62,867 nt of DNA. It comes from a virus. A program made the translations under genes and the position numbers. Under the pieces are notes generated by a model that had not been told where the DNA came from, ran no database searches, and worked only from the letters and a program-made list of their open reading frames with translations. This document shows, piece after piece, positions 16,753 through 62,449 of this stretch. The first letter of the stretch is position 1, and each line of letters begins with the position of its first letter. The stretch spans positions 1 to 62,867 of the IMG/VR virus record IMGVR_UViG_3300033571_011317. The stretch is one strand, 5' to 3'.

Positions 16753-18330
16753 ATGAAAAAGAAACTCAGTGATATCAATTGGGATATCGGTTATGACAAT
16801 AAAGTAGCTCGCACCGGGCCAAATATTGATAAGACAAAAGAACTGTTAGATAGCACTGGGCCTGGTTTTTGCCTTGCTAAGTTTACACAAGTTACTATGC
16901 ACTTAGGCACAGGAATGACACATAGTTGTCACCACCCAGTGCCACATAAAATCCCCTTAGAAGAAATTCAAAAGAATTCGGGCGCATTGTTTAATACTAG
17001 TGTGCTTAAAAAAGCTAGAAAAGAAATGCTGGAAGGACAGCGTCCAAAGGAATGTGATTACTGCTGGCGTGTTGAAGATAACAAAAGTCCCAGTGATAGA
17101 TTCTATAAGAGTTTAGAGCCATGGGCATTGGAAAAGCATGACGAGATTCAAGCCAGCGACCCTAACAAAGACTTTTATCCAAGTTATTTAGAAGTAGACT
17201 TTAGTAACGTATGTAACTTCAAATGCGTGTACTGCGGTCCCGAGTATAGTAGTAAGTGGGTAGAAGAACTAAAACAAAACGGCCCAGTTAAGTTGTTGGA
17301 AAATACAGATCACACTGTATGGGCACAGGGCTGGCAACCTGACTTAGACAGTCTAAGTTATAAGAACAGTGAATTCAATCCTTACATTGATGCATTTTGG
17401 AAATGGTGGCCTGAAGCTTACAAACACTTACATGTATTCCGTATCACAGGCGGCGAGCCGCTGTTAAGCAAAGAAACATATAGAAGTATGGACTGGTTCA
17501 TCGACAATCCAAACCCCGATCTTGAATTTAGTATTAATACTAATATGGGTGTACCTGACAAGCTGTGGGACAAGTTTATCGAACGTGCAGAAATTCTAAG
17601 TCGTGGCAACTATATCAAGAAGCTAACTATCTTTACCAGCGTAGATGGTTGGGGTGAACGTGCGGAATATCTGCGTCCAGGACTGGACTTTGAAAAGTTC
17701 TGCAAGCGTTACGAACAAATCATGCAAATGGGTAATATTAGAATTACCACAATGGTTACGTTTAACATTCTAAGTATTTCCAGCATACAGAAATTGTTTG
17801 AATGGCAGCTCGAACTTAGAAAGAAATATAATCCTAACCCCGTTGTCGCTAACATGTGGGAAAAGGACACAGGCTTTAACTTTGCTTTCCCTGGAGAGTC
17901 ATATACAGACAGAAGTAAAAAGACTACAAGTCATCCTAGTATCAATGGTATTGATTTGCCTTACTTGCGTAATCCAACGTTCTTGGATGCACAGTGGGCC
18001 AGTAAAGATCTTATTCAAGAATATTTGCTGCCAAGTATTAACTATATGGCGGATCATACAACACAGACTAAGACTTGGAAAATGCACCATGCCTTTGAAG
18101 AGTTTGAGCTTGAAAAATTCAAACGTGTGTGTTTGAATATTGCTTATAATTCTAAAAATGATGTAGAAGGCAACAAAGACTTTACACTAAATCGTGCCAA
18201 GTTCTATGACTTTGTCAATGACTTGGATCGTCGTTATGGTACAAACTTTTTAGAAGTATATCCAGAGTACACAGAGTTTTATAATATTTGTAAAGCAATG
18301 AAACAAAAGGTAATTAACAAAGATGTCTGA
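16753..18330 (+). CDS. Radical SAM enzyme with N-terminal twitch-like Cys domain (525 aa)
   Basis: The core motif C-N-F-K-C-V-Y-C at about residues 154-161 (CxxxCxxC) binds the 4Fe-4S cluster that cleaves S-adenosylmethionine; the G-G-E-P SAM-binding motif follows near 233. Before the core lies a Cys-bearing domain (F-C near 39, S-C-H-H-P near 58, C-D-Y-C-W near 98) resembling half a SPASM domain, as in the N-terminal-twitch radical SAM family. It is the longest single-core version here because of an extended C-terminus. AAAGG 5-8 nt upstream sets the start. The next gene is a close paralogue with an 8-nt overlap. The reaction and substrate are unknown; peptide or sugar modification is inferred from the domain type. 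Confidence 0.85.
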   Translation: MKKKLSDINWDIGYDNKVARTGPNIDKTKELLDSTGPGFCLAKFTQVTMHLGTGMTHSCHHPVPHKIPLEEIQKNSGALFNTSVLKKARKEMLEGQRPKECDYCWRVEDNKSPSDRFYKSLEPWALEKHDEIQASDPNKDFYPSYLEVDFSNVCNFKCVYCGPEYSSKWVEELKQNGPVKLLENTDHTVWAQGWQPDLDSLSYKNSEFNPYIDAFWKWWPEAYKHLHVFRITGGEPLLSKETYRSMDWFIDNPNPDLEFSINTNMGVPDKLWDKFIERAEILSRGNYIKKLTIFTSVDGWGERAEYLRPGLDFEKFCKRYEQIMQMGNIRITTMVTFNILSISSIQKLFEWQLELRKKYNPNPVVANMWEKDTGFNFAFPGESYTDRSKKTTSHPSINGIDLPYLRNPTFLDAQWASKDLIQEYLLPSINYMADHTTQTKTWKMHHAFEEFELEKFKRVCLNIAYNSKNDVEGNKDFTLNRAKFYDFVNDLDRRYGTNFLEVYPEYTEFYNICKAMKQKVINKDV

Positions 18331-19768
18331 TGATCTAATTAAATGGAGAGATGAAAATCTAAATTCAATTAGTCCCAGCTTCTGTGCGGCTAAATGGTAC
18401 AACGCCAGTATCTTTTTAGGATCTGGCTATACTGGTAGCTGTCACTTACCTTTGCCGCATCCAATTGATGTCAGCGAAATTAGTTATAACCCCAGCGGCT
18501 TGCACAACACTGATCACAAAAAGCGTATGCGTAAAATGATGCTGGAAGGCAAAAAGCCAGCAGAGTGCGGCTATTGTTGGAAAGTGGAAGGCATTGGTAG
18601 AAATAATATCAGCGACCGTATTAATAAAAGTATTATATATAGCGCAGAAGATATTAAAAAAATCAAGGACATGAACTGGGCTGACGATGTTAATCTTAAA
18701 ACATTAGAGATCAGTTTTGATAGACAGTGTAACTTTGCCTGTAGCTATTGTAACGCAGGTTACAGTACAACATGGAGCTATGACATTGCCAAGAATGGCC
18801 CATATCAAAACTTCATTGCTGAAGGCGGTGGCGGGGGTGCATACCAGACTGATGGAGCGTGGAGCACAGCATATGGGCGCCATTTGGATGACAATCCCTA
18901 TGTGGAAGCGTTCTTTGAATGGTGGCCTGAATTATCTAAGAGCTTGCAAGAGCTACGTATTACTGGCGGCGAATGTACAGTTAGTCAAAACTTTTGGCGC
19001 TTTATTGATATTATAAACGAAAAGAATGAATACTTGGACATGCGCTTTGCGGTTAACAGTAATCTAGGTTCAAGCCCCAGAGCTTTGGAAAGACTAATTG
19101 AAGTAACTAAAACGCTGCCAGTTAAAGAGTTTGATTTGTTTACCAGCAACGAAAGCTTTGGCTTACATGCCGAGTATCTGCGTGATGGTATGGACTATAA
19201 AGTATGGCGCAGTAACTTAGTCAACTTCATTGAAAATGCCAAGTTTAGAAATGTCACCATCATGATGACTATATCTAATCTATGTTTGTTTAGTATAACA
19301 GAATTCATGGACGATATGTTAGAACTTAAACAAAAATATGGAAACAATAGACCTTATTTGGATCTAAACATATTGCGCTGGCCTGCATACATGAGCCCAG
19401 TTACGTTGCCCAACGATCTCAAAGATGAAGTACATTCGAAACTATCAGCATGGTATGATCTGCACAAAGATAGTCGGTATTTAGAAGCAGGTGAAAAAGC
19501 CAGCATCAAACGATTAATTGATTATTTAGAAGTTGTCCAAACAGGTCACGTATCTACTACTCACGATAAGTCTGCATTGTTCCACGACTTTAAGAGTTTC
19601 TATTCACAGTATGATGCTAGAAGAAACAAAAACATAGTTAATACATTTCCGGAAATAGCCAATTGGTACGAAAGCATAGAACTTAATAAAAATTATGAGA
19701 TAGTTAAGCTAGTAGAACAATCAGGAATAACTTTTGCCGAAACAGGGGTATATAAGGAAAATGATTGA
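18323..19768 (+). CDS. Radical SAM enzyme, N-terminal twitch type, GGEC variant
   Basis: A 481-residue paralogue of the preceding gene. The auxiliary Cys domain comes first (F-C near 21, G-S-C-H-L near 46, C-G-Y-C-W near 83), then C-N-F-A-C-S-Y-C at about 136-143. The SAM-contact motif reads G-G-E-C near 215 instead of G-G-E-P, and a run of five Gly lies near residues 170-175. Shared extended segments with the upstream gene ('F-F-E-W-W-P-E', 'L-R-I-T-G-G-E') show a recent tandem duplication. The substrate is unknown. It overlaps the SGNH hydrolase gene by 8 nt. Confidence 0.85.
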   Translation: MSDDLIKWRDENLNSISPSFCAAKWYNASIFLGSGYTGSCHLPLPHPIDVSEISYNPSGLHNTDHKKRMRKMMLEGKKPAECGYCWKVEGIGRNNISDRINKSIIYSAEDIKKIKDMNWADDVNLKTLEISFDRQCNFACSYCNAGYSTTWSYDIAKNGPYQNFIAEGGGGGAYQTDGAWSTAYGRHLDDNPYVEAFFEWWPELSKSLQELRITGGECTVSQNFWRFIDIINEKNEYLDMRFAVNSNLGSSPRALERLIEVTKTLPVKEFDLFTSNESFGLHAEYLRDGMDYKVWRSNLVNFIENAKFRNVTIMMTISNLCLFSITEFMDDMLELKQKYGNNRPYLDLNILRWPAYMSPVTLPNDLKDEVHSKLSAWYDLHKDSRYLEAGEKASIKRLIDYLEVVQTGHVSTTHDKSALFHDFKSFYSQYDARRNKNIVNTFPEIANWYESIELNKNYEIVKLVEQSGITFAETGVYKEND

Positions 19769-20426
19769 TAAAATTTATGCATACGGAGATAGCTTTACTG
19801 CTGGAGACGGTATAAAGTCCAAAGATGCATGGCCTGCTAAATTGGGAGACTTAATGAAGACCCCTGTTGTTAATAGAGGCGTGCCAGGAGGTTCTAACAA
19901 GCTTAGTATAATTAATTTGTTAAATGACTTTGCAGACATAGAGCATCCAGCCAGGGCATTGGTGGTATTTTCTTGGACTGGCATATCACGCACAGCAGTA
20001 TATTTTCCAGAAAAGAAACAATGGGAAAACATACTGCTGGGGCATGATCCATATGAAGAATATCTGAAAAAAATGAAAGATATTTGGTACGAGCATTTCT
20101 ATAGTGACTACGAAGGCCTGATGGAATATTACATGCAACAGATATTTGTAGCATCTTTTCTGGAGGCTAGAAACATACAGTATGCTTTTATAAATTCTTT
20201 TTTAGAAGGTTATATAGATAAAGAACCTTTTGAAAACCAATATAAAAATATGGTTAAGTTATTGCCAACAAAGAAATTTGTACTAGGCTACGACACATCT
20301 ATCTACGAAGTTTATTGTTTAAATAAAGGCTTGAAGTGCAGTGATGGATATCATCCCAACGAGGAAGCACACGCAGAGTTGGCAAAGAAAATAAAATTGT
20401 TTCTTAGAGATATACGATTGATATGA
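19761..20426 (+). CDS. SGNH/GDSL-type hydrolase (copy 1)
   Basis: A 221-residue protein beginning with the block I motif Y-G-D-S-F-T-A-G-D (nucleophile Ser near residue 10). Block II-type 'G-V-P-G-G-S-N' is near 44 and the catalytic D-G-Y-H near 200, giving a complete SGNH set. Such enzymes remove or transfer acyl (often acetyl) groups on sugars, or cleave esters in lipids. No signal peptide is seen, so action is cytoplasmic or virion-associated. The ATG at 19761 with AAGGAAA just upstream is chosen over a TTG nine codons earlier. It is the first of three consecutive SGNH genes. Confidence 0.8.
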   Translation: MIDKIYAYGDSFTAGDGIKSKDAWPAKLGDLMKTPVVNRGVPGGSNKLSIINLLNDFADIEHPARALVVFSWTGISRTAVYFPEKKQWENILLGHDPYEEYLKKMKDIWYEHFYSDYEGLMEYYMQQIFVASFLEARNIQYAFINSFLEGYIDKEPFENQYKNMVKLLPTKKFVLGYDTSIYEVYCLNKGLKCSDGYHPNEEAHAELAKKIKLFLRDIRLI

Positions 20427-22089: not shown

Positions 22090-23512
22090 AGCAACACTAC
22101 CCTTATTATATGATTACGTATTTCCCAATTCAGTATTAGCTAATGCACTACAAACTGAATTAGGAATGGTTAATTATTTGCACAGCATGAATACAACTAC
22201 AGTACGGGATTGTGGTTTATTTGAACAGCAAGTGCATACGGGATCCGACAATGACACAACAATGTCATTCATATTAGGCAAATCATTTGGTACTTGGCCT
22301 AACACTGGCCCAGGTACACATTTAACTGCCGGGCCATGCATGGAACTTGTTGACGCCAAAGAAGAAAGTTTATATTTTGGCAAACGCAAATTCGACAAAT
22401 ACCTATATCCTATAAAGGTTAGCCCGCATATTGATCAATTTTGCGGTGCCGCATTTAATGGCACAAAAATAGCAGGTAATTTCTTTTGGAAATATATTTC
22501 CGCTGAAGCGTTAGATGATATAAGAAAAGGCCGCGCAACTATCGTATTGGACTATGCACAGGAAAACTTTGTTTCAAAGTCTACGTATGAAAATTTACAT
22601 ACGGCACTTGAATATAGCGGTATTCCAAAAAATCAAGTAATAATGGCATTTAACACCTTCAATGCTGAAGAAGTTTATAATTCTTGGTTCCCCGAAGAGG
22701 AGCAAATGTTGATAGTTAAAAGCTGGCCATTTGTCATTAGTAATACTAGTTATTTCTATATGCAGACTAGAGAAGGCAGAACTGAGCCAGAAAGATTCTT
22801 GGAGTCTAAAAAGCGTATTCGACCACATTCTTTTTTGTTTAAAATCCGCAGAGCCCGTGACCATAGAATTGCCTTAGCTTTTGCAATGAACGAAGATAAT
22901 CTATTAGACCTTGGGGATTGGAGTTGGTTAGCAAATTTCGATCCATATGATACGTTAGTAGATGAATATAATCAACGCTATGGCTTTAAATTGACAAAGG
23001 CAAAAATGGATAAGCTATTCAGTAGACTACCTAAGTCACTTAAAGATGAGCCAAACGATACATATCACAGTGTGAGTTCTTGGACAGATAATCAGGTTAA
23101 TTCGTATAACAATGCATACTTTTATATCTGCACAGAAACATACACAGAAGGTCCATACAAATCAGTAACTGAAAAGATTTGCAAACCCATTGCCAATTAT
23201 ATGCCATTTGTATTTTTATCATTTCCCGGAGCATTGCAGTTATTACGTGATATGGGTTTTAAAACATTTAACGGCTTTATTGACGAAAGTTATGATTTAG
23301 AACAAGATACTGGCAAGCGAGTGGCAATGGTCTATGAAGAAATTAAAAAGTTATGTAAAATGAATAAGAAACAACTACATAATTGGTATTGGAGAATGGA
23401 AGATATACTATTACATAACAGGGAGCATTTATTAACGTTGTATAAAACAGATACAACAACTGAAAATTTTATTAAATTCCTCGATGAAAGAATTAAAGGA
23501 ACAAGAGAATGA
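22082..23512 (+). CDS. Large glycosyltransferase-like protein (copy 1 of 3)
   Basis: A 476-residue protein related to the genes at 24678 and 26065. The diagnostic C-terminal block is 'T-E-K-I-C-K-P-I-A', then 'P-F-V-F-L', then 'L-R-D-M-G-F-K-T-F' and 'I-D-E-S-Y-D' near residues 365-405. This resembles the 'S/T-E-K ... P-x-x' nucleotide-sugar-binding end of fucosyltransferase (GT10)-like enzymes and is frequent in marine phage genomes. Its N-terminal half is unlike the other two copies. Function as a glycosyltransferase is a tentative fold-level reading. ATGA overlaps link it to the RmlC-like gene. Confidence 0.6.
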   Translation: MDKATLPLLYDYVFPNSVLANALQTELGMVNYLHSMNTTTVRDCGLFEQQVHTGSDNDTTMSFILGKSFGTWPNTGPGTHLTAGPCMELVDAKEESLYFGKRKFDKYLYPIKVSPHIDQFCGAAFNGTKIAGNFFWKYISAEALDDIRKGRATIVLDYAQENFVSKSTYENLHTALEYSGIPKNQVIMAFNTFNAEEVYNSWFPEEEQMLIVKSWPFVISNTSYFYMQTREGRTEPERFLESKKRIRPHSFLFKIRRARDHRIALAFAMNEDNLLDLGDWSWLANFDPYDTLVDEYNQRYGFKLTKAKMDKLFSRLPKSLKDEPNDTYHSVSSWTDNQVNSYNNAYFYICTETYTEGPYKSVTEKICKPIANYMPFVFLSFPGALQLLRDMGFKTFNGFIDESYDLEQDTGKRVAMVYEEIKKLCKMNKKQLHNWYWRMEDILLHNREHLLTLYKTDTTTENFIKFLDERIKGTRE

Positions 23513-24054
23513 ATTATAAATTGCCCCAATGGGATAATGTTGATATATCTTATTTGTCAAAATTTGGCACAGAAGTTCCTGTGTATAGCCCCAGTGTATA
23601 CAGAGAATATCGTGGTGAAATTTTTACAACGTTCCATAGTGAAACTCATCCAGTTGTGAAATTACTGCCCACAGACGTTAATATACATGGAAGGTTTAGT
23701 AAGTCATATCAAGGAGTATTGCGTGGCTTACACTACGACAATAAGACTTGGAAATTAGTACAAGCCTTAGTAGGCGACATATACCTTGTAGTAATGGATG
23801 TTAGAGAACACAGTGTTAACTATGGCAAATGGGAAAGCTATATAATCTCAGAAAAAACTAGAGATCAAGTCTTAGTACCACCGGGCTTTGCTAATGGACA
23901 CTTTGCACTAACAGATTGCATATTCCATTATAACTTATTTTATCAAGGCGATTACGTTGATGAAAAAGCGCAAGGAGTGATTAAGTGGAATGATAGTAGA
24001 TTTAACATAGAATGGCCTACAGATAAGCCAGTGTTGCAAGCAAGAGATAGATGA
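23509..24054 (+). CDS. rmlC: dTDP-4-dehydrorhamnose 3,5-epimerase-like protein (RmlC family)
   Basis: A 181-residue cupin with the RmlC signature: 'G-V-L-R-G-L-H-Y' (catalytic His near residue 74), 'L-V-Q-A-L-V-G-D-I-Y-L-V-V-M-D-V-R' near 83-100, 'V-P-P-G-F-A-N-G-H' near 125 and a Tyr-containing 'H-Y-N-L-F-Y' near 139-144. Length equals the family norm. RmlC enzymes epimerise C3 and C5 of dTDP-4-keto-6-deoxyglucose on the way to deoxysugars such as rhamnose. The upstream enzymes RmlA and RmlB are not in this window, so the host or another phage region must supply the substrate, or the protein acts on a different keto-sugar. Confidence 0.85.
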   Translation: MNYKLPQWDNVDISYLSKFGTEVPVYSPSVYREYRGEIFTTFHSETHPVVKLLPTDVNIHGRFSKSYQGVLRGLHYDNKTWKLVQALVGDIYLVVMDVREHSVNYGKWESYIISEKTRDQVLVPPGFANGHFALTDCIFHYNLFYQGDYVDEKAQGVIKWNDSRFNIEWPTDKPVLQARDR

Positions 24055-24063
24055 AAGATTATT

Positions 24064-24693
24064 ATGATTAAAAACATTGACAAATATGAAATTGTAAGGC
24101 CAATTGACTTGACTAAAGAAGAGTTAATAGCATTTGAAGATAAGATTGTAAACCACTGGGAAAATGCCAAAATCCGTGGCCCAGTGCACTTGTCTAACGG
24201 CAACGAAGAACAACTGATTGAAATCTTTAAAAGAATTAAAACAACTGATTGGGTATTTTCTACATGGCGCAGTCATTATCATGCACTGCTTAAAGGCATT
24301 GATCCCGCAACTATTGAACAAGATATATTAGCTGGAAAAAGTATTACTATATGTAATTTAGATAATAAATTTTATTCCAGTGCTATTGTTGGCGGTACAT
24401 TATCAATTGCATTGGGCGTTGCACAAGCAATTAAAGATAATGGCAGCGATGAAAAAGTTTGGTGTTTCATTGGTGATATGAGTTTTGAAAGCGGTATCTT
24501 TTATGAAGTGCACAAATATGCTAGAAACTTTAATTTGCCGTTGTATTTTATTGTAGAAGATAATGCAGTATCTACTAATACTCCTACTGTAGCAACATGG
24601 AATCACAAACGTGATATTCCCGAAGATGTTATATGGTATGAATATAAATCTAAATTTCCTCATTATGGAACAGGCAAATGGGTCGTATTCTAA
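24064..24693 (+). CDS. TPP-dependent E1 alpha-like subunit (ThDP-binding half)
   Basis: A 209-residue protein matching the thiamine-diphosphate-binding half of E1/transketolase enzymes: 'V-F-S-T-W-R-S-H-Y-H' near 61-70, 'A-L-G-V-A-Q-A' near 118, and the ThDP/Mg motif G-D-M-S-F (near 137) with its Asn about 28 residues on in 'E-D-N-A'. It is shorter than a full dehydrogenase E1 alpha (usually over 320 residues). The complementary beta-like half is encoded 7 kb downstream at 31676. Together they could carry out two-carbon or acyl transfer on a sugar or keto acid. Its stop lies inside the next gene (16-nt overlap). Confidence 0.75.
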   Translation: MIKNIDKYEIVRPIDLTKEELIAFEDKIVNHWENAKIRGPVHLSNGNEEQLIEIFKRIKTTDWVFSTWRSHYHALLKGIDPATIEQDILAGKSITICNLDNKFYSSAIVGGTLSIALGVAQAIKDNGSDEKVWCFIGDMSFESGIFYEVHKYARNFNLPLYFIVEDNAVSTNTPTVATWNHKRDIPEDVIWYEYKSKFPHYGTGKWVVF

Positions 24694-27510: not shown

Positions 27511-28481
27511 AATTTGAAAACAAAGTAGTATTGGTAACAGGCGCCAGTGGTTTAGTGGGTGTACCAGCAGTTGAAAAAAGCGTTCATGAAGGCGCAAGTA
27601 AAGTCTATGCTGTGGATATCAGACAAAGCCCCAAGCTAAAAGAAGTCTGCGACAAATATCCCAACGTGGTAGAATTTGTTAACTGTGATTTGACTTATTT
27701 GCATAACTGCGAAGAGTTGTTTAAAAACAAGATTAACATTGTGCTACACATTGCCGGAGTCAAAGGCAGTCCTGCTCGTAGCAGTAAACAGCCCTGCGAT
27801 TATTTGTTCCCTATGTTGATGTTTAACACTAACATGATTAAGGCAGCATTTGATGCTAAGGTAGATTGGTTTGTGTATTTGAGTAGTGTAGGCGTTTACC
27901 AGCCAGCAGAGCTAATGAACGAAGACGATGTTTGGAAAACAACACCAAGTCGCAATGATTGGTATCCAGGCTGGACCAAGCGCATGGGCGAAGCAACATT
28001 GGAATCTCTGACAGTACAGTATGGGTGGGATAATTGGACAGTAATTCGTCCAAGTAATATCTATGGTATCAATGATAACTTTGCAGAAGATGCCACAGTT
28101 ATCAGTTCTAACATTTGGAAGCTAAAGAACGTTCCGGGCAACAGCATTACATGTTGGGGCAATGGTAGTGCTCGCAGAGACTTTGTGTTTGGCGACGATG
28201 TTGCACAAGCCAGCATCGATGCAGTTACTAAAGAAGTCAAAGACATTGTTAACTTTGGCTGCGGCACAGCAGTTAGCATTAAAGAAACAATTGAAACTAT
28301 CATTGACGTATACAAAGAAATCAGTGGCGAAGAAAAACAAATCATTTGGGACGAAACAAAGACAAATGGCGACCCAGTTCGCTGTCTAAGTGCGGACAAG
28401 CAACGTAAATATGATATGTTACCTAGAACTACACTAAGAGATGGTATTAAGAAAACTATCGAAAATTACATTGGAAAATAA
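27507..28481 (+). CDS. NAD-dependent epimerase/dehydratase-like SDR (copy 1)
   Basis: A 324-residue extended SDR with the NAD-binding G-A-S-G-L-V-G at about residues 11-17, 'V-L-H-I-A-G-V-K-G' near 82, 'Y-L-S-S-V-G-V-Y' near 125, and 'V-I-R-P-S-N-I-Y-G' near 177. Such enzymes change sugar nucleotides by epimerisation, dehydration or reduction. The catalytic Y-x-x-x-K is altered: in 'W-Y-P-G-W-T-K-R-M-G-E' the residue four before Lys is Pro and Tyr is five before it. The ATG at 27507 forms an ATGA junction and is chosen over a GTG four codons earlier. It is the first of three consecutive SDR genes. Confidence 0.8.
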   Translation: MKFENKVVLVTGASGLVGVPAVEKSVHEGASKVYAVDIRQSPKLKEVCDKYPNVVEFVNCDLTYLHNCEELFKNKINIVLHIAGVKGSPARSSKQPCDYLFPMLMFNTNMIKAAFDAKVDWFVYLSSVGVYQPAELMNEDDVWKTTPSRNDWYPGWTKRMGEATLESLTVQYGWDNWTVIRPSNIYGINDNFAEDATVISSNIWKLKNVPGNSITCWGNGSARRDFVFGDDVAQASIDAVTKEVKDIVNFGCGTAVSIKETIETIIDVYKEISGEEKQIIWDETKTNGDPVRCLSADKQRKYDMLPRTTLRDGIKKTIENYIGK

Positions 28482-28482
28482 A

Positions 28483-31674: not shown

Positions 31675-31675
31675 A

Positions 31676-35617: not shown

Positions 35618-35618
35618 T

Positions 35619-41354: not shown

Positions 41355-41362
41355 GACAACAA

Positions 41363-52415: not shown

Positions 52416-52418
52416 TTA

Positions 52419-53819: not shown

Positions 53820-54544
53820 ACAATTTTTTTGATCAGTGGAAAGATTTTTCTCATTATAGTTCATTAAATACTCGTCCCGAGAAGTTTTCTGCATGGAGAA
53901 CAGATAAGCAAGTCATGAAAGATTACTTTAACTGGATAGAAAAAGAAAGCAACTGTCCAAGTCTTAAATTAGATTTACCATTGCCACAGAAAGAAATGGA
54001 AGCAGAAGCTCTTGCTTTGATGGATGAGTTTGTCAAACACCGAGGCGAGGAACATCCCGGCTGGCATAGTCTAGTACTACATGGCTATAATAAACACACC
54101 ACAGACGATTGGCGTAGCAAAGCATATGACTTCACAGAACAACCAGAATATACCTGGACAGAAATTGCAGATGTTTGTCCTGTTACTGTAAATTGGTTAA
54201 AAAATACTTGGAACTTTACACGCTTTGACAGAGTTCGATTTATGCTATTAATGCCCGGTGGCTATATTAAGCAGCATGCCGATTATGAAGTTCGTAAAAT
54301 GGCAGCATATAATGTTGCTATTAACAATCCCGATGGCGTTGAATTTGTCATGGAAGATGCTGGATTGATTCCCTGGAAGGCAGGAGATGCAAGAGCCATT
54401 GATATAGGAAGGCAGCACAGTGTAAGACATCTGGGAACAGAACCACGTATACATATGATTATACATGGTGCTCCTGGAGAAAAACATGCAGAGACCATGT
54501 GTAGAAGTTACGATCTTTTATTAGAAGAATTAAATGCAAAGTAA
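53804..54544 (+). CDS. Aspartyl/asparaginyl beta-hydroxylase-like Fe(II)/2-oxoglutarate dioxygenase
   Basis: A 246-residue protein with the AspH-type cupin core: 'F-M-L-L-M-P-G-G-Y-I-K-Q-H-A-D-Y' near 145-160 supplies the iron-binding H-x-D, and 'G-R-Q-H-S-V-R-H-L-G' near 202-211 supplies the distal His. An Arg in 'E-P-R-I-H-M-I-I-H-G' near 215 is suited to 2-oxoglutarate. AspH enzymes hydroxylate Asp or Asn side chains in proteins. The N-terminal 90 residues are family-specific. Being coupled to the next rSAM gene by an 11-nt overlap, it is the clearest hint that the cluster modifies protein or peptide targets. Acting on a small molecule remains possible. Confidence 0.8.
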   Translation: MDNRVNNFFDQWKDFSHYSSLNTRPEKFSAWRTDKQVMKDYFNWIEKESNCPSLKLDLPLPQKEMEAEALALMDEFVKHRGEEHPGWHSLVLHGYNKHTTDDWRSKAYDFTEQPEYTWTEIADVCPVTVNWLKNTWNFTRFDRVRFMLLMPGGYIKQHADYEVRKMAAYNVAINNPDGVEFVMEDAGLIPWKAGDARAIDIGRQHSVRHLGTEPRIHMIIHGAPGEKHAETMCRSYDLLLEELNAK

Positions 54545-55706
54545 AACATTTTGTATCCTGCCATGGATGCACCTTGCCACTAATGCCAGTGGTAATCTTA
54601 GGGTCTGCTGTAATAGTACTCCGGGCAAAAATTTTATTTTGAGAAACGGCACTAATCGACCATATAAGATAACAGATGCTGACATGCAGGATTTCTGGCA
54701 TAGCAACACTATGAAGAACATCAGGCATGAATTGTTAAATGATCAACGACCCGCGATGTGTGAACGCTGCTTTAGAGAAGAGGATAGCGGTGTTCGCAGT
54801 GCTCGCCAAGCTTGGAACGAAAAATACATGTTTGACTATGAGGCTGTGGTAACACCCGAATTAAACGTGCAGTATATAGATATACGTTTAGGTAACCTGT
54901 GCAACTTGAAATGCCGTATGTGCAATCCATATGCCAGTAACCAATGGGTTGACGAGTGGCATCTAGTTGAACAGCAGCTAACTGATACTGAAGTTAAAAG
55001 ACTGAGTAGTATGAACTGGCCCAACGACGATGCAGTTGCGGTTAATTTGTTGAAGCTCGCTAACACTATAGATGAGATTTATCTAACAGGCGGAGAACCT
55101 ACACTTGCTCTCAGTCAGTATAAGTTATTTGATAAGTTGATCGAATTAGATCTTGCTAAAAACATCACCTTAAAGTATAATACAAACTGCACAAACCTTC
55201 CTAAAAAGCTAGTGGACTATTGGCAGCACTTTAAAAAGATAAAAATAAATGCCAGTGTGGATGCATATGGCGACCTTAACAGGTATATCAGATATCCCAC
55301 AGGCTGGAATCTTGTTGAAAAGAATCTAGCTAAATTTGTGGAAATGAGCGCACAGGGTAAAATAGATCTGCAGGTACACTGTACTGTCCAAATGTATAAT
55401 ATCTTGCAGCTAGATAAGTTATTTGACTATTTAGAGTCCATGGATGTAAAAGACATACATCTTAACATTTTGGATCATCCGGATTATCTAAACGTTAGGG
55501 TATTACCGGCTAATTTAAAAAAGTTAGCGGCAGAAAGACTCCAACCATATCTGCATATAAAACGTGCCCAGTCTCTAATTGATTATATGAACGCAGAGGA
55601 TTGGAATCATATGTGGGGAGATTTTGTAAAGTATACAGATTCATTGGACCAGAGTCGCGAAGAAAACTTATCAGAATTAGTACCTGAATTAACCAATGGC
55701 AGATAA
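54534..55706 (+). CDS. Radical SAM enzyme, N-terminal twitch type (390 aa)
   Basis: A compact member: 'F-C-I-L-P-W' at 5-10, 'L-R-V-C-C-N' near 22, 'C-E-R-C-F' near 76, core C-N-L-K-C-R-M-C near 123-130, 'T-G-G-E-P-T' near 185 and 'I-N-A-S-V-D-A-Y-G' near 239. It begins in the last codons of the beta-hydroxylase gene (11-nt overlap) and overlaps the next rSAM gene by 11 nt. Complete motifs predict catalysis. It may act on the same target as the hydroxylase. Confidence 0.87.
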   Translation: MQSKTFCILPWMHLATNASGNLRVCCNSTPGKNFILRNGTNRPYKITDADMQDFWHSNTMKNIRHELLNDQRPAMCERCFREEDSGVRSARQAWNEKYMFDYEAVVTPELNVQYIDIRLGNLCNLKCRMCNPYASNQWVDEWHLVEQQLTDTEVKRLSSMNWPNDDAVAVNLLKLANTIDEIYLTGGEPTLALSQYKLFDKLIELDLAKNITLKYNTNCTNLPKKLVDYWQHFKKIKINASVDAYGDLNRYIRYPTGWNLVEKNLAKFVEMSAQGKIDLQVHCTVQMYNILQLDKLFDYLESMDVKDIHLNILDHPDYLNVRVLPANLKKLAAERLQPYLHIKRAQSLIDYMNAEDWNHMWGDFVKYTDSLDQSREENLSELVPELTNGR

Positions 55707-56892
55707 AGTTTGTTTGATTCCGTTCGTTAGTATAGCAACTCATCCCGCAGGCTTTGTAAGTAGGTGTATGATGAGTTCTGCACCTATGGGCTCAATGACT
55801 GAGGAAAATGTTTGGGACAATAGCAACTTCGCACAGTTACGTTCTGACATGGTAAACGATAAATGGAATTTACCTGGTTGCAATACTTGTCATGGCAGAG
55901 AAGCACAGGGTCTTGTAAGTCAACGCATCAATTGGAAAACCAATGAGAGATGGTGGAACGCTGACCTCTGGGATACCAAGGATTTTAAACAGAGTATAAC
56001 AGGCAATAAAATTTATCACTTGTTCTTAAACACTAGCAATCTATGCAATTTTAAATGCAGGATGTGCAACAGCATGTACAGTAACAGTTGGATAAACGAC
56101 GACCAGCTGCTCAGAGATAATGGCTTTGATAGAAGCGACTATGTTGATTACACTAAAAATAAAAATGACCTAATGTCATTTGTCACAAAACTATTGCCCA
56201 GACTCGGTGAACTCAGAATGATAACGGTCACAGGCGGTGAACCGTTTATAAACAATGATCTATTAGATGTGTTTGATCTTCTATCAGAAGCAGGCATACT
56301 GCAAAATGTGCGACTAAGCATAACAACAAATGGCAGTCTACTAACAGAACAGCATCTGTTGCGGTTGCGTAATGCAAAATCTGTAAACATCAATATAAGC
56401 ATAGATGGCACAGGTAAGCTGTTTGAATATATGCGTAGCGTGGAACAATGCTCATGGGAAACTATCACAGGTAAGATTGATATGCTGTGTCAATACCGCA
56501 ACGAGTATAAAAACTTTTTATTCAGCCCAAACTCAAGTTATCAACTATACAATATGCTGAATGTCCGAGACTTTTATGAATGGGCAGAGCCTTTGATTAA
56601 TCGTCCTGCAGAATGGATAGAGTATAGACTGCTTACTCATCCAGAATATCTACATGTTGCTATTGCCCCAGAGAGTATCAAGCAGGCAGCACTAGAGCAG
56701 TTAGACTATGTGGAAAATAAGTATAATACTGCTAACAAATTTTTCCTTGATAACATGAGAAAAAATTTAATGATGACCAAGCCACAGAGTCACTGGCAAG
56801 ACTTTAAAAAATTTACATCTGTGCTAGATAAAAAACGCAACCAAAACCTCAGTGAGGTATGTCCTGAACTATATGAAAACTTTGACCTTTGA
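55696..56892 (+). CDS. Radical SAM enzyme, N-terminal twitch type with altered Cys pair (398 aa)
   Basis: Auxiliary domain 'V-C-L-I-P-F' at 4-9, then R-C-M-M where relatives have Cys-Cys (near 23), and 'C-N-T-C-H' near 62. Core C-N-F-K-C-R-M-C near 116-123, 'T-G-G-E-P-F' near 178 and 'I-S-I-D-G-T-G' near 236. It pairs with unit 1 of the 849-residue double enzyme ('R-C-x-M-S' and 'N-L-C-N-F-K-C-R-M-C-x-S-x-Y-S-N' in both). The loss of one Cys suggests a different auxiliary-cluster ligation. It overlaps the following rSAM gene by 20 nt. Confidence 0.87.
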   Translation: MADKVCLIPFVSIATHPAGFVSRCMMSSAPMGSMTEENVWDNSNFAQLRSDMVNDKWNLPGCNTCHGREAQGLVSQRINWKTNERWWNADLWDTKDFKQSITGNKIYHLFLNTSNLCNFKCRMCNSMYSNSWINDDQLLRDNGFDRSDYVDYTKNKNDLMSFVTKLLPRLGELRMITVTGGEPFINNDLLDVFDLLSEAGILQNVRLSITTNGSLLTEQHLLRLRNAKSVNINISIDGTGKLFEYMRSVEQCSWETITGKIDMLCQYRNEYKNFLFSPNSSYQLYNMLNVRDFYEWAEPLINRPAEWIEYRLLTHPEYLHVAIAPESIKQAALEQLDYVENKYNTANKFFLDNMRKNLMMTKPQSHWQDFKKFTSVLDKKRNQNLSEVCPELYENFDL

Positions 56893-57829
56893 TCGCATAA
56901 ATTCTGATCCAGACTGGGTTATTATAGACTGGACTATGACCAATGTTTGCAACTATGCCTGCGAATACTGCCCAAGTATAACGCACGATGGTAGTTTTGG
57001 TTGGCCCACTCTGGAGAGTGTAGATTATACAACTAAGGTTCTTCAAGCTCACTACGGAAAAAATAGAAGGCTGGAATATACATTACTAGGTGGTGAGTTA
57101 GCCATATGGAAAAAACTTCCAGACGCAATTGATATTATTAAGAAAAATAGCCCAGACAGTCATATTAAGTTCATCACCAACGGTATTATGCCAGAGGATT
57201 ACTGGAGAAGAATCGGCAGTAAGATAACATCAGCAGTGTTTAGCTATCATCCCACACAGGTAAAAAGTGTAGAGAAGTTTGTGGAAAGTATCAATGCCCT
57301 GGATAATGAATACAAGACTATTTTAGTGTTGGCATGGCCTGCATGTTGGGAACAGGTAATCGCAGCCAGGAAATATATAATAGAAAATGTCAGAGAATTC
57401 ACTAGCCTTGAATTAAAGCTAGTTGATAATAGATATGAAACTATTGCTGACAGTAAAGTAGTTTATACACAAGAGCAAATGGATTTTATACAAGAAAATA
57501 GAAAAGTATCTAAATCTAAAAAGAGCATATACAAGCCAAGTTTCACTTATATAAACAATCAACGTTTGCAAGAAGTAACGGGACAGATTTTAGTTGATGG
57601 GCAAAACAAGTTTAAAGATTGGAGTTGTGGCATAGGTGTTGATAAAATAACATTGGATGCCAATGGTACAATAAGACGTGGCAGTGGCTGTATGATTGGA
57701 ACTGATGAAAATTTTGGAAATTGGAAAGAATCAAACATAATGAATTTACCAGTGTCGGGAGTAATCTGCCCTTATAATACCTGCTGGTGTATGCCAGATC
57801 TAATGGCAACAAAAAGTAAATACGTATAA
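56873..57829 (+). CDS. Radical SAM enzyme with C-terminal auxiliary domain (318 aa)
   Basis: Core C-N-Y-A-C-E-Y-C near 26-33, 'L-G-G-E-L-A' near 75 (Leu in place of Pro after G-G-E), 'F-I-T-N-G' near 101 and 'F-S-Y-H-P' near 124. The C-terminal auxiliary domain has 'F-K-D-W-S-C-G-I-G-V' near 247, 'D-A-N-G-T-I-R-R-G-S-G-C' near 262 and 'I-C-P-Y-N-T-C-W-C-M-P-D' near 300. It is the fused equivalent of the split pair at 50082/50780. The ATG at 56873 is chosen; a GTG seven codons upstream has no useful ribosome-binding site. It shares one base with the next gene. Confidence 0.83.
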   Translation: MKTLTFDRINSDPDWVIIDWTMTNVCNYACEYCPSITHDGSFGWPTLESVDYTTKVLQAHYGKNRRLEYTLLGGELAIWKKLPDAIDIIKKNSPDSHIKFITNGIMPEDYWRRIGSKITSAVFSYHPTQVKSVEKFVESINALDNEYKTILVLAWPACWEQVIAARKYIIENVREFTSLELKLVDNRYETIADSKVVYTQEQMDFIQENRKVSKSKKSIYKPSFTYINNQRLQEVTGQILVDGQNKFKDWSCGIGVDKITLDANGTIRRGSGCMIGTDENFGNWKESNIMNLPVSGVICPYNTCWCMPDLMATKSKYV

Positions 57830-58059: not shown

Positions 58060-58775
58060 AAATTGGAATTTTTGGAGACAGTTTTGGTGAAGAACATAAG
58101 AAAAATCCATCAATGTCATGGTGGGAATATGTTTCGCAATACCATAGTGTAACTAACTTTTCAGTGGGTGGCTCTGATCTATACTATTCTATTAAACAGC
58201 TAGGAAAACATCAATTTGAATTTGATAAAATTATTTGGTTTGTTACTAACGAAAATCGAATTCAAATCATGTTAGACGACATATTTGATGATAAAATACA
58301 TAGGTTTATAACTACTACAGAACATGCGGCAACTTATTTGGAATATTATAGCAAATCAAATAATGTAAATTCTAAGTTTGCTATAGATGCTTTAACCTCG
58401 GCAATGTCATACTTTAATTACATTTGTGATATAGATAAAAATTCTTATATTGCTAGACTAATGATACAGGATGTAATACAAGCCAATAAAAATAAAATAC
58501 TAGCTATACCATGTTTTGAATCGGCCTGCAATATTTTAAATTTACAAACAAGCTTGTCTGAAATAGCTTATCAAGAAACAATAGCTATGGGCAAAGATCT
58601 AAGTATAACATTAACCGGCGATACTACTGATATTAGAAATAATCATATAACCAGTGAAAATAATAAAATTTTAGGTGAAAAAATTTTAGATTGGATAAAT
58701 GGTGGAACATTTGGATTAAATGAAAAAGATTTTGTGATACCAAGTATTGAAGAAAATAAGAAATATTTTATATGA
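58056..58775 (+). CDS. SGNH/GDSL-like protein (copy 7)
   Basis: A 239-residue protein with block I 'I-F-G-D-S-F-G-E-E' at 5-13, 'S-V-G-G-S-D' near 37 and 'V-T-N-E-N-R' near 64 (block III Asn). The C-terminal block is degenerate: 'D-I-R-N-N-H-I-T' near 190 puts Asn-Asn, not Asp-x, before His. It may be an active hydrolase with a changed acid residue or a binding protein. ATGA overlaps on both sides tie it to an rSAM gene downstream. Confidence 0.7.
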   Translation: MKIGIFGDSFGEEHKKNPSMSWWEYVSQYHSVTNFSVGGSDLYYSIKQLGKHQFEFDKIIWFVTNENRIQIMLDDIFDDKIHRFITTTEHAATYLEYYSKSNNVNSKFAIDALTSAMSYFNYICDIDKNSYIARLMIQDVIQANKNKILAIPCFESACNILNLQTSLSEIAYQETIAMGKDLSITLTGDTTDIRNNHITSENNKILGEKILDWINGGTFGLNEKDFVIPSIEENKKYFI

Positions 58776-59968
58776 GTGATTTAAAAACAAGCGAATATGA
58801 CTTTACTAAGATTCCTTATAAGGACCTAGTAAGAGTCGGCCAACGAACTATGTTATATCGAGACATGTTTACAGTGTCGTGGTTATTAGGTCGTTACTGT
58901 AACTATCGCTGTAGCTATTGCTGGCCCTATGCTCGTAGTGATACTAAAGATCACCGCCCTACTCCTTTGATGTTGAAAACAGTAGATGAGATTAAACGCC
59001 AAGCACGCGAACGTGGCTTTAACAGTTTCCACTTCAGTCTAAGTGGCGGCGAGCCAACATTCCATCCTGCTTACATAGATATTCTTAACCATTTGAACAC
59101 GGATGCCGGTAATACAAATTATACCAGCGTACACATGACTAGTAATATGAGTCGTCCTATTAAATGGTTTGAAGAAAAGTATGTACCCGCAGTTCGTAAT
59201 TTCCATCGTGCTAGTATTACTGCCAGTTGCCATTTGGAACACGTTGACACTGATAAGAAAGTAGAGGAGTTTGCTGACAAGTTAGTACTATGTCAGGAAT
59301 ATGATACGCAGATAACAGTCAATCAAGTTATGGTACCCGAACAGTTTTACAAGATATATGATCTGGCATTATACTTTCATGGTCGTGGTATTAACGTTAC
59401 ACTCAAGCCTCAAAGTGATCCAACTGCTAGTCGTGTAGTGGACGGATACACTGATGATATGTTGGAAAAGTTACACAATGGTATGCCACAACGTGCATTC
59501 ACTGAAGTAAAAGCCAGCAAAGCAGGATTAGTTGAAAGACCTAAGCCCACGTTTAAAATCGACGATGCTAGAACAATGCAAAAGCAAACTTACGGTCAAG
59601 GTATACCACAGCACTTCCAAATTGAATTTATGGACAAAGATGGTAATCCATGGTTTATGGATCAAGCTGAACGTTTCAATGCTTTTAACTTCAACAACTT
59701 TAACAAATGGGAGTGTAGCAGTGGCTACCGTAGTATTATTATTCGTGAACCAGATGGCACTGTAAAACGCAGTTACAGTTGTAGCGAAGTTCCATTGGGA
59801 CATATTGAAACAGGCTTTAAGCTATATGACAAGCCAATGCCTTGTGGCGGAACAAGTTGCGTAAGCAGTGCAGATAGCAAAATACCTAAACGAGCACCAG
59901 GTACTAAGTTGCCATTATTTCCAGGAGATAAAACATATGAAGAAGATATTAATAGCGGGCAACAGTAA
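58772..59968 (+). CDS. Radical SAM enzyme with C-terminal auxiliary domain (398 aa)
   Basis: Core C-N-Y-R-C-S-Y-C near 43-50, 'L-S-G-G-E-P-T' near 90, 'M-T-S-N-M-S' near 117, and 'I-T-A-S-C-H-L-E-H' near 149. The C-terminal domain has 'W-E-C-S-S-G-Y' near 312, 'D-G-T-V-K-R-S-Y-S-C' near 328 and a final 'P-C-G-G-T-S-C-V-S' near 359. The same family as split enzyme B and the gene at 56873, with a longer linker. Its end overlaps the following SDR-like gene by 32 nt. Probably catalytic; substrate unknown. Confidence 0.85.
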   Translation: MSDLKTSEYDFTKIPYKDLVRVGQRTMLYRDMFTVSWLLGRYCNYRCSYCWPYARSDTKDHRPTPLMLKTVDEIKRQARERGFNSFHFSLSGGEPTFHPAYIDILNHLNTDAGNTNYTSVHMTSNMSRPIKWFEEKYVPAVRNFHRASITASCHLEHVDTDKKVEEFADKLVLCQEYDTQITVNQVMVPEQFYKIYDLALYFHGRGINVTLKPQSDPTASRVVDGYTDDMLEKLHNGMPQRAFTEVKASKAGLVERPKPTFKIDDARTMQKQTYGQGIPQHFQIEFMDKDGNPWFMDQAERFNAFNFNNFNKWECSSGYRSIIIREPDGTVKRSYSCSEVPLGHIETGFKLYDKPMPCGGTSCVSSADSKIPKRAPGTKLPLFPGDKTYEEDINSGQQ

Positions 59969-61364: not shown

Positions 61365-61370
61365 ATTATG

Positions 61371-61417: not shown

Positions 61418-61439
61418 TGAAATTTTCTTTATTGTTTTT

Positions 61440-62108
61440 CTAATGAACGGTGTACATTTTTTGTGAGTCTTTGTAGTCTTGTATTTCTAATATCAGATCT
61501 GATAGTTTTTTTGTTGGCGCATACCCCGGTGGCATCCTAGTACTATCTACCAATCTGAAATAATGTATCCCTAGTTTTTTAGAAAGTTTGTATCCTTCGA
61601 CTATATCGTTTTCGTTGTATTTAAAAACAATCCATTTCCAGAACAAAAGACATTTAGCCTCTTTCCCCATGACGTCCATGGCAGTATAAATGCTTTGCCA
61701 ATCGGCATTTTTTCTGTATAAGTGATTGTTGTGCTCCAAGCCGTCTACGCTGAAATTTAATACATCATTTGGTTTAAGTAACTGCGCTAATTCTTGCCAC
61801 CACTCTTTTTTTCTTAGATTTGCGCAGGTTTCTATATGTAAACCTTTATCATATTTGTGACATATTTTTATGATATCAAACAGCTTACTATGATATATTG
61901 GATCACCATATCCACCGCAAAAAATAATTCTTTTTGCAGGGGTAACGGATATAATTCTTTCTATCGCCTCAACACTGATTTCTCCAAAGTTCCAATTATC
62001 TTTGTCCGGGTCAGTGACTCTGGTACACTCACTGCAACTCAATGTGCATTTGGAAGTAAGTTCTATTTCCAACATATCGGGATCATTTAAGTATGACACT
62101 GATGTCAT
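61440..62108 (-). CDS. Radical SAM core subunit, split enzyme C (222 aa)
   Basis: Core C-T-L-S-C-S-E-C near 20-27, 'C-G-G-Y-G-D-P' near 64-70 as SAM-contact strand, and 'F-S-V-D-G-L-E' near 119. Clear paralogue of the + strand core at 40396, but here the SPASM-like subunit is encoded upstream, ending in an ATGA overlap with this ATG. Despite the strand change, the pair has kept both parts. Located next to thyX, so it may be expressed earlier than the + strand cluster. Expected partner: the product of 62105-62449. Confidence 0.85.
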   Translation of the reverse strand: MTSVSYLNDPDMLEIELTSKCTLSCSECTRVTDPDKDNWNFGEISVEAIERIISVTPAKRIIFCGGYGDPIYHSKLFDIIKICHKYDKGLHIETCANLRKKEWWQELAQLLKPNDVLNFSVDGLEHNNHLYRKNADWQSIYTAMDVMGKEAKCLLFWKWIVFKYNENDIVEGYKLSKKLGIHYFRLVDSTRMPPGYAPTKKLSDLILEIQDYKDSQKMYTVH

Positions 62109-62449
62109 AGTAATACCTCATTAGTTAAACCATTGTAAGCTAACTCACCACCTGTTGTGTCTGTATGATCTAGTCTCGATTTTCCAGGTAATGACTTCGA
62201 ACAGGTGTTTTTACAAATTGTAAAAGGTTCGTTGGATGATATTTTCTCAATAATTAATCTGGTGGCATCTGAATTTTTAATTTCTTCTAGGCCAAAACTA
62301 TTTAAATTTAATTGTTGATATAAATTCGGACCTAAAAAGATCCGAATTTCGGGATTGGTACTAGCCCAACAACAAGGAAGATATGTGCCATCAGCTTTTA
62401 TAAAAGGTGCTGTAGTATTGTTAAAACAAGAAGGATCTAAAATATCCAT
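62105..62449 (-). CDS. Stand-alone SPASM-like subunit, split enzyme C (114 aa)
   Basis: A 114-residue protein with 'F-I-K-A-D-G-T-Y-L-P-C-C-W' near 16-28, 'L-Y-Q-Q-L-N-L' near 43, and a distal 'I-C-K-N-T-C-S-K' near 79. This matches the + strand SPASM-like protein at 41028 in order and spacing. It has a longer C-terminal tail, rich in Thr, Gly and Asp, than its paralogue. It should bind an auxiliary Fe-S cluster and join the core encoded just downstream. Translation starts 2 nt after a hairpin whose loop and 3' arm hold the GAAAGG ribosome-binding site. Confidence 0.8.
   Translation of the reverse strand: MDILDPSCFNNTTAPFIKADGTYLPCCWASTNPEIRIFLGPNLYQQLNLNSFGLEEIKNSDATRLIIEKISSNEPFTICKNTCSKSLPGKSRLDHTDTTGGELAYNGLTNEVLL

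Follow-up and report, generated by a model that had tools for sequence, protein, structure and literature searches.

RESULTS

A battery of radical SAM genes in a large phage

The stretch of DNA analyzed here, called the window throughout, is the linear 62,867-base IMG/VR virus record IMGVR_UViG_3300033571_011317, which comes from a large uncultured phage, and its most conspicuous element is an island of 16 radical S-adenosylmethionine (SAM) genes. We found 17 CxxxCxxC motifs in 16 of the 58 extracted open reading frames (ORFs); with 500 residue shuffles per ORF the mean was 0.07 motifs and the maximum was 2. All 16 genes match the Pfam family PF04055 (each with E <= 3.5e-6), and 14 pass its gathering score of 29.5, with g12 (27.7 bits) and g41 (29.0) marginally lower. 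Motif and profile together assign the members to the radical SAM superfamily, as sequence-based predictions. The initial annotation of this DNA had counted 16 genes with 17 cores, and both the motif count and PF04055 bear this out. The positions it gave for the cores are gene starts (for the gene starting at 16753, the core lies at 17212-17235), two of these starts lie earlier in the longest ORFs, at 51105 (TTG) and 56852 (GTG), and three cysteine-rich partner genes at 41028, 50780, and 62105 (the last on the minus strand) had been overlooked. The battery, its partners, and its replaceable center are laid out as follows.

16753..18330, + strand: g11, N-terminal-twitch radical SAM protein (NF033640, 305 bits)
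18323..19768, + strand: g12, N-terminal-twitch radical SAM protein (NF033640, 283 bits)
37152..38324, + strand: g32, core radical SAM-SPASM protein (PF04055, 38.7 bits; SPASM 19.5 bits, slightly below cutoff)
38321..57829, + strand: replaceable center, g33 to g51, with 11 radical SAM genes and 12 cores (from nucleotide similarity breaks, a protein table, and counts in relatives)
39066..40403, + strand: g34, N-terminal-twitch radical SAM protein (NF033640, 257 bits)
40396..41031, + strand: g35, short radical SAM protein, partner g36 (PF04055, 39.6 bits)
41028..41354, + strand: g36, stand-alone SPASM domain (PF13186, 33.6 bits; 4-base overlap with g35)
43523..44791, + strand: g40, N-terminal-twitch radical SAM protein (NF033640, 376 bits)
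44781..46268, + strand: g41, core N-terminal-twitch radical SAM protein (NF033640, 427 bits; model with a predicted local distance difference test score [pLDDT] of 85)
46261..47547, + strand: g42, N-terminal-twitch radical SAM protein (NF033640, 273 bits)
47540..50089, + strand: g43, two N-terminal-twitch radical SAM units in tandem fusion (two NF033640 domains above cutoff)
50082..50783, + strand: g44, short radical SAM protein, partner g45 (PF04055, 55.5 bits)
50780..51118, + strand: g45, cysteine-rich partner of g44 (weak C-terminal match to NF038073, 19.4 bits; 4-base overlap with g44)
51105..52415, + strand: g46, N-terminal-twitch radical SAM protein (NF033640, 309 bits)
54534..55706, + strand: g49, N-terminal-twitch radical SAM protein (NF033640, 384 bits)
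55696..56892, + strand: g50, N-terminal-twitch radical SAM protein (NF033640, 253 bits)
56852..57829, + strand: g51, radical SAM protein with a cysteine-rich C-terminal part (PF04055, 35.4 bits)
58772..59968, + strand: g53, core radical SAM protein (PF04055, 48.9 bits; 20 viral and bacterial relatives 53-91% identical)
61440..62108, - strand: g56, short radical SAM protein, partner g57 (PF04055, 39.8 bits)
62105..62449, - strand: g57, stand-alone SPASM domain (PF13186, 22.0 bits; cutoff 21.5)

Ten genes, with 11 domains, exceed the 170-bit cutoff of NF033640, the family of N-terminal-twitch (N_Twi) radical SAM proteins, with g43 retaining the N-terminal and core cysteines in both of its fused halves. 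In an alignment of 35 N_Twi proteins from several phages, nine of them from the window, residues C40, C58, C121, and C124 are invariant, as are the three core cysteines and the GGE motif. A script scan located GGE somewhere downstream of 15 of the 17 cores and at the usual place after 14; the GGE of g32 sits immediately behind the core and is not counted. A GxYGDP-type variant, read from the sequences, is common to g32, g35, and g56. The six radical SAM genes outside NF033640 fall into g32, g51, and g53, which have their own cysteine-rich C-terminal part, and g35, g44, and g56, which are short and each adjoin a separate cysteine-rich gene (g36, g45, and g57, respectively). The SPASM profile that the initial annotation had proposed for checking, along with PF04055 and an N-terminal-twitch family, is passed by g36 and g57, and g45 has no Pfam match and a weak NCBIfam match only. 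The split pairs at 40396-41354, 50082-51118, and 61440-62449 thus stand against the fused counterparts g32, g51, and g53, and a comparable split pair occurs in Pelagibacter phage Mosig EXVC030M (Mosig).

From g02 to g54 (8.7-60.5 kb) all 53 kept ORFs lie on the plus strand, and from g10 onward most neighboring genes overlap or almost touch; the two largest intergenic gaps follow g51 (226 bases) and g26 (149 bases). A second IMG/VR record of 172,208 bases, G001, derives from the same phage: its bases 7891-70757 are 100% identical to the window over 62,867 bases, although the two records possibly share their sampling. Other IMG datasets contain relatives with 90-97% identity in g41, and these have batteries too; G018, for example, has 13 PF04055 matches in 46 kb. 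The 16-gene island is therefore real and not a lone assembly. Relatives with only one or two radical SAM genes, the rest being assembly artifacts, were not seen; those examined hold 3 to 21 PF04055 matches.

The center of the island is exchanged between lineages

Comparison with two relatives, G009 and G010, revealed sharp breaks in nucleotide similarity. Apart from a gap at g05, the window and G009 are 77-85% alike in DNA as far as base 38,322, which is two bases before g32 ends, and similarity to G010 extends to 38,324. It restarts as a short patch at 57,824 (G009) or 57,860 (G010), where g51 ends or just beyond, and is fully restored from g53 (58,772) onward; g56 and g57 have no nucleotide match in either relative. 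Both relatives thus have flanks similar to those of the window but a different center in place of its 19.5 kb with 11 radical SAM genes, and the replacement runs from one gene edge to another. The replacing centers carry 9 (G009) and 10 (G010) motif-bearing ORFs, versus 11 radical SAM genes in the window. Only g41 is plainly the same gene as in the window, at 67-69% identity, and for g47, g48, and g51 the reciprocal counterparts are distant (26-36%). Another relative, G002, holds nearly the whole center of the window at 47-97% identity (g34 is without an orthologue), though its virion proteins g01 to g04 are only 54-60% identical. G002 lacks g13 to g26 across its whole 235,561 bases, with gene order otherwise nearly all kept, and its DNA contrast is milder: 76% in most of the center versus 64-73% in the virion and g27-g32 part. 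Because the center is replaced in G009 and G010 between alike flanks and recurs in the more distant G002, it behaves as a cassette exchanged between lineages.

Simple tandem duplication, considered as a source of the battery, was rejected, as the best identity between N_Twi proteins inside the window is 27-36%. The term "family expansion" used in the initial annotation is misleading for the same reason: these paralogues are that distant even at best, several kinds of radical SAM gene are mixed, and the center moves as a cassette.

Three radical SAM proteins co-occur with transferase-like proteins

The core radical SAM proteins g32, g41, and g53 are reciprocal best matches in all seven relatives compared first. 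Those relatives had been picked by g41, and therefore we retested the core in 25 of the 80 virus records picked by g53, chosen by hand and mainly because of their size. Orthologue cutoffs were placed at visible score gaps in whole-record searches: at least 738 bits for g41 (next score, 369) and at least 519 bits for g32 (next score, 345). Orthologues of g41 occur in 22 of the 25 records and those of g32 in 20, the full triad being present in 20. Homologues of the transferase-like proteins g10 and g28 to g30 are found in all 20 triad records versus 1 of the 5 others (Fisher test, 0.0004), and 17 of the 20 have two such matches, typically one long and one short. Our samples include near-duplicates (G003/G013/G014, G344/G353, G338/G355, and perhaps others); when two of them are removed, the association stands at 0.0006. 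The constant core is thus a set of three radical SAM proteins that co-occur with GT-A-fold transferase-like proteins, the latter encoded together with one further core-associated gene.

15772..16743, + strand: g10, long GT-A-fold transferase-like protein (in alignments A5 and A7; fold modeled on g29)
33865..36308, + strand: g28, g29, and g30, core GT-A-fold transferase-like proteins (alignments A5 and A7; g29 model; no Pfam match)
36295..37152, + strand: g31, core-associated protein, methyltransferase-like by sequence reading alone (alignment A6; no Pfam match)

For g29, the one family member modeled, the predicted structure (pLDDT 85) has a nucleotide-diphospho-sugar-transferase fold of the GT-A type. 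Its best structural match has a Z score of 11.1 and a root mean square deviation of 3.0 over 142 residues, and the 50 matches listed comprise glycosyltransferases, nucleotidyltransferases, which share the GT-A fold, and a few proteins without known function. Among 44 sequences of the family, D88 is present in at least 90% and D90 in all, forming a DxD-type acidic pair. Model and motif suggest that g10 and g28 to g30 are putative GT-A glycosyltransferases; they do not prove activity. Profiles of g32 and g53 gave only weak matches to general radical SAM enzymes when searched against the PDB, and profiles of the glycosyltransferase-like and methyltransferase-like proteins gave no match there.

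These partners bear on the proposal that phage radical SAM proteins improve low-oxygen host metabolism, made for Campylobacter phages CP220 and CPt10 (PubMed Central [PMC] article PMC2853527). For the present island we consider such an auxiliary metabolic role improbable, since the constant partners are transferase-like proteins rather than a metabolic pathway and a gene-edge cassette replacement beside fiber-side genes would be unexpected for metabolism.

Neighboring genes include virion, fiber-side, and sugar enzymes

The remaining features of the window are as follows.

87..8642, + strand: g01, giant virion structural protein of jumbo-phage type, 2,851 amino acids (aa), left flank (PHROG 10938, E 1.6e-183)
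10247..11443, + strand: g04, presumptive fiber-like protein (orthologue alignment including one on a Bdellovibrionota contig)
12745..13110, + strand: g06, small conserved fiber-side protein (37% identical homologue adjoining the fiber-like gene in bacterial locus L141)
13103..14831, + strand: g07 and g08, function unassigned (homologues in L141, that of g07 beside the fiber-like gene; no Pfam match)
19734..20426, + strand: g13, GDSL/SGNH hydrolase-like protein (PF00657, 27.5 bits, above cutoff)
23509..24054, + strand: g17, dTDP-4-dehydrorhamnose 3,5-epimerase (PF00908, E 6.8e-32)
24064..24693, + strand: g18, thiamine pyrophosphate (TPP) enzyme half, E1 (PF00676, E 4.9e-15)
27495..30407, + strand: g21, g22, and g23, nicotinamide adenine dinucleotide (NAD)-dependent epimerase/dehydratase-type proteins (PF01370, E <= 8e-35 each)
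31676..32218, + strand: g26, second TPP enzyme half, transketolase pyrimidine-binding (PF02779, E 3.2e-9)
32368..33840, + strand: g27, NodU/Nol-type carbamoyltransferase (PF16861 and PF02543; PHROG 1601)
38321..39073, + strand: g33, nitroreductase-like protein (PF00881, E 5.8e-7)
53804..54544, + strand: g48, Asp/Asn hydroxylase-type protein (PF05118, E 4.6e-11)
58056-58775, + strand: g52, extra gene of the window (flanking sequences adjoin directly in G009, G010, and G002)
60480-61364, - strand: ThyX thymidylate synthase, right edge of the island (PF02511)

In tblastn searches g01 has matches in 57 phage records, including SCTP-2, Atu_ph07, PA5oct, and 121Q. Its residues 1903-1938 give a sub-cutoff match to the carbohydrate-binding module CBM_5_12 (20.8 bits; cutoff, 26.2). 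A single weak PHROG match relates g03 to tail fibers, and Pfam and PHROG searches with g04 gave no match. The g04 protein carries long Gly-Tyr repeats (GYGYGY...), also present in its orthologues in G002, G009, and G010 and absent from those in G005 and G007. Of the SGNH hydrolases claimed in the initial annotation, g13 passes Pfam and the other genes, among the 58 ORFs scanned, do not; the glycosyltransferases it had named agree with the predicted GT-A fold and have no support from Pfam.

The same Pfam scans of the 58 ORFs speak to nucleotide or DNA hypermodification, which could be raised because QueE-like radical SAM proteins occur in phages and one of them is a weak PHROG match of g53. They revealed no QueC, QueD, or other deazaguanine family, and we regard this explanation as very improbable.

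Spread among viruses, selection, and cofactor supply

From 69 records picked by g41 we searched 39 relatives, among them G001, the window's own phage. PF04055 matches number 8 to 20 in each of the 15 large relatives (E <= 0.001), 3 to 16 in each of the 24 smaller ones (E <= 1e-5), and 5 to 21 in each of the 13 searched of the 80 g53-picked records. In control searches CP220 gave 11 matches, equal to the published count, Vibrio phage K566 gave 5, Mosig 1, and SCTP-2 0. At least 596 confirmed matching stretches for g53 are present in IMG/VR, and tblastn (E 1e-5) gave no g53 match in 50,697 phage records, a set from which the records nearest the window may be excluded. Given these two counts, g53 seems to be a widespread viral trait that is absent from cultured phages.

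The ratios of nonsynonymous to synonymous substitution (dN/dS) for radical SAM orthologues, where finite, range from 0.017 to 0.17; those of the partner genes are 0.142 (g36), 0.014 (g45), and 0.342 (g57), and some non-radical-SAM genes reach 0.46. The values are indicative only, because synonymous sites are saturated in many pairs, which then give no ratio. Where measurable, the radical SAM orthologues appear to be under purifying selection, which, with the intact motifs, agrees with the earlier claim that these are maintained genes. An A-type iron-sulfur (Fe-S) carrier (PF01521) is encoded by 7 of the 15 large relatives and a SAM synthetase (PF02773) by 6 (G002, G007, and G009 to G012), consistent with a high requirement for SAM and Fe-S clusters. 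Two long radical SAM ORFs in relative G014 (L112:14016-15938 and L113:2325-4532) have their cores at residues 203 and 279, a placement that presumably resembles that of B12-binding radical SAM enzymes.

Core genes in Bdellovibrionota

The phylum Bdellovibrionota includes many predators. When bacterial and archaeal genomes were scanned for g41 orthologues, 57 loci emerged, the best of them mostly in metagenome-assembled genomes (MAGs) of this phylum. Among the 11 g41-picked Bdellovibrionota loci with full flanks, the fetched stretch contains g32, g41, and g53 in 8, and a glycosyltransferase-like or methyltransferase-like core gene is present in 10. On the 493-kb contig of L120 the recognizable set consists of two transferase-like genes and the three core radical SAM genes, neighbored by MoxR, DUF58, S49-peptidase, and secretion-ATPase-type genes; in L119 and L123 the core has GT2 glycosyltransferase genes nearby. 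Five loci (L118, L128, L131, L138, and L139) are possibly misbinned phage contigs and were left out of the bacterial evidence; the contig of L128, at 46,940 bases, is exactly as long as an IMG/VR record.

Of 290 Bdellovibrionota genomes drawn, 17 contain g53 (15 with a single match and 2 with two partial ones), and the gene is therefore accessory in the phylum; the frequency has to be read in light of the fact that most of the 17 were known beforehand. A g53 tree was built from 139 profile hits, with rows below 330 aa and identical rows dropped, by a quick method with midpoint rooting and no bootstrap. In it, 16 Bdellovibrionota rows split from 88 viral and two MAG rows (L131 and L139) with a Shimodaira-Hasegawa-like approximate likelihood ratio test (SH-aLRT) value of 99. 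This split speaks against recent transfer between the sampled members, and a recent capture of g53 from Bdellovibrionota is accordingly not supported.

One locus, L141, differs in its neighbors. It lies beside pheT in a Bdellovibrionales genome (G054:C21, 127-139.9 kb) and comprises g41, a glycosyltransferase-like gene, and g53, followed by relatives of the fiber-side genes g04, g06, g07 (twice), and g10 and then by further radical SAM genes with a split pair of the g44/g45 type. Thirteen of the 150 ORFs of G054:C21 match the phage set, 12 of them inside the L141 island, which may be an integrated phage fragment or a bacterial fiber island. Among the loci collected, searches with g04 and g06 profiles revealed no second bacterial locus comparable to L141; outside the genome of L141, the only further match is L144, on a contig that is possibly phage.

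DISCUSSION

A proposed glycan-building and -tailoring locus

The intact motifs and purifying selection, together with neighbors that include transferase-like, epimerase, carbamoyltransferase, and fiber-side genes, make a dedicated modification pathway, as the initial annotation had suggested, the best reading of the island, with the virion or the cell surface as its possible target. The interpretation that we put first, tentatively and with confidence a little short of even, is that a jumbo phage here carries, next to its fiber-side genes, a locus for building and tailoring glycans. It is favored because of the pairing of radical SAM with transferase-like proteins, the sugar enzymes, the carbamoyltransferase g27, a BtrN-like auxiliary domain, and the bacterial GT2 neighbors. 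The auxiliary domain is the N-terminal twitch domain of the N_Twi proteins, which matches that of BtrN, an enzyme acting on an aminocyclitol. Under this model, sugars would be supplied by the dTDP-sugar epimerase g17, the NAD-dependent epimerases g21 to g23, and the TPP enzyme halves g18 and g26, and the transferase pair would attach them to an acceptor, most likely the neighboring fiber protein and otherwise an envelope glycan. The core radical SAM proteins would carry out C-H chemistry required by every member (sugar epimerization, dehydrogenation, deoxygenation, decarboxylation, or linkage formation), and the cassette radical SAM proteins, the carbamoyltransferase, and the hydroxylase would add variable outer modifications. 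By analogy with O-antigen loci, in which such changes alter the serotype, exchange of the center could change the exposed chemistry while the assembly core stays constant. The island would most likely build a variable glycan-like decoration on fibers or envelope.

Several findings weigh against this model. The full triad is missing from 5 of the 25 g53-bearing records, and the transferase-like proteins have no Pfam match in the scans of the 58 ORFs and possess a fold that also covers nucleotidyltransferases. Only one Bdellovibrionota locus, L141, contains a fiber-like gene, and that island extends almost to the contig end. Of the seven records with PF01521, three represent almost the same phage, and neither SAM synthetase nor the A-type carrier has a match in the 172-kb record, itself a fragment, of the window's phage. 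Folds, moreover, do not discriminate between sugar and peptide substrates: the g41 model has a Z score of 11.8-11.9 with each of BlsE, DesII, anSME, and a sactipeptide thioether enzyme, and the cytosylglucuronate decarboxylase BlsE shares the best score of 11.9, tied with peptide enzymes.

In a different view, the radical SAM proteins modify a protein or peptide directly, in the manner of maturases of ribosomally synthesized and post-translationally modified peptides, for example by cross-linking or epimerizing residues of the presumptive fiber protein g04, which has Gly-Tyr repeats, with the transferases secondary. SPASM and twitch radical SAM proteins are often peptide maturases, the PDB matches include SkfB, SuiB, and a sactipeptide thioether enzyme, the sub-cutoff NCBIfam matches include PapB and YhhB, and the repeats recur in the window, G002, G009, and G010. 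Yet NF033640 alone attains its cutoff among the NCBIfam matches listed, up to 25 for each protein, and G005 and G007 have radical SAM batteries with repeat-free g04 orthologues. Genes g10 to g53, moreover, mostly overlap or abut with small gaps, which leaves little room for a precursor gene, no dedicated precursor search having been made. On balance, we judge direct peptide modification rather unlikely.

If the product is a glycan, its acceptor could be the host rather than the virion. In one formulation the island would leave the virion untouched and remodel the host cell surface during infection, for example through an O-antigen-like change that keeps other phages out; sugar clusters of jumbo cyanophages have been interpreted in this way (PMC7824862), glycosyltransferases of a pelagimyophage cluster were termed lipopolysaccharide related (PMC7029224), and the GT2 genes near the core in two Bdellovibrionota loci count in its favor. 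No flippase or polymerase family appeared in the Pfam scans of the 58 ORFs, although those of the host could serve. The virion is favored as acceptor because the island lies on the same strand beside virion and fiber-side genes and because L141 contains a fiber-like gene; we accordingly consider host-surface remodeling in this strict form somewhat unlikely, the host envelope as acceptor being nearly as likely as the virion.

Relationship to known systems

The statement in the initial annotation that single radical SAM genes are known in phages understated the precedent. Phage CP220 carries 11 radical SAM proteins and CPt10 carries 12, and the two differ in a block of five radical SAM genes thought to have been acquired en masse (PMC2853527). 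In this respect they resemble the window and G009/G010, in which a radical SAM block is likewise replaced between otherwise similar phages, and CP220 also has genes with a nucleotide-diphospho-sugar-transferase domain near its radical SAM genes. However, the radical SAM proteins in the compared 24.5-kb stretch of CP220 are only 21-33% identical to those of the window, CP220 gave no g53 match, and it has an annotated amidinotransferase, a family (PF02274) without a match (E 0.01) in the window's 58 ORFs. Pelagimyophages contain a hypervariable island, the host recognition cluster (HRC), with tail fibers, glycosyltransferases, and radical SAM cassettes (PMC7029224), which sits between VrlC and the neck gene gp14 of a T4-like phage. 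The window is likewise hypervariable and encodes GT-A-fold proteins, with a presumed fiber role for g04 and a weak tail-fiber match for g03. In Mosig a carbamoyltransferase is 30% identical to g27, nitroreductase and Asp_Arg_Hydrox genes lie near a tail-fiber gene, and the split pair, of 211 and 112 aa, is like g35/g36; unlike the window, Mosig shows one radical SAM match at E 1e-5 and three MoaA-like annotations in the stretch read, with no g53 match. The 183-kb T4-like marine genome TARA_ERS488813_N000010 has 12 radical SAM genes and an A-type Fe-S carrier (PMC5332604); compared by its description, the relatives of the window go further, reaching 21 PF04055 matches, some with a SAM synthetase in addition. 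At the family level, the NF033640 model names no reaction, and the battery also includes six genes outside it. The domain order of BtrN is reversed, its auxiliary domain being C-terminal and that of the twitch proteins of the window N-terminal.

Phages with many radical SAM genes, swapped radical SAM modules, and hypervariable islands of fiber and glycosyltransferase genes are therefore already in print. In the open-license PMC literature we recognized no description of the g32/g41/g53-transferase core, its viral spread, or its Bdellovibrionota copies, and as far as these searches reach, the core, its spread in uncultured viruses, and the Bdellovibrionota copies are new.

That some Bdellovibrionota share the core suggests a common surface chemistry. 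Bdellovibrio recognizes prey via proteins resembling phage tail fibers (PMC10769870), which makes a shared fiber chemistry an attractive possibility. On the most speculative version, which we think distinctly unlikely, the core radical SAM proteins and the transferase pair would be an undescribed system making one specific unusual sugar or sugar-protein linkage on adhesive fibers; jumbo phages and Bdellovibrionota, two kinds of bacterial killers, would share this chemistry for building or diversifying the fibers in contact with prey cells, and the swapped cassettes would be fiber "serotypes."

Collectively, radical SAM-rich phage islands gain a handle: three near-constant radical SAM proteins and their transferase-like partners, about five components that can be tested as a single pathway. 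Should the product be a fiber or surface glycan, cassette exchange would explain how the contact chemistry of these phages diversifies, and the copies in Bdellovibrionota would link recognition by phages with recognition by predators.

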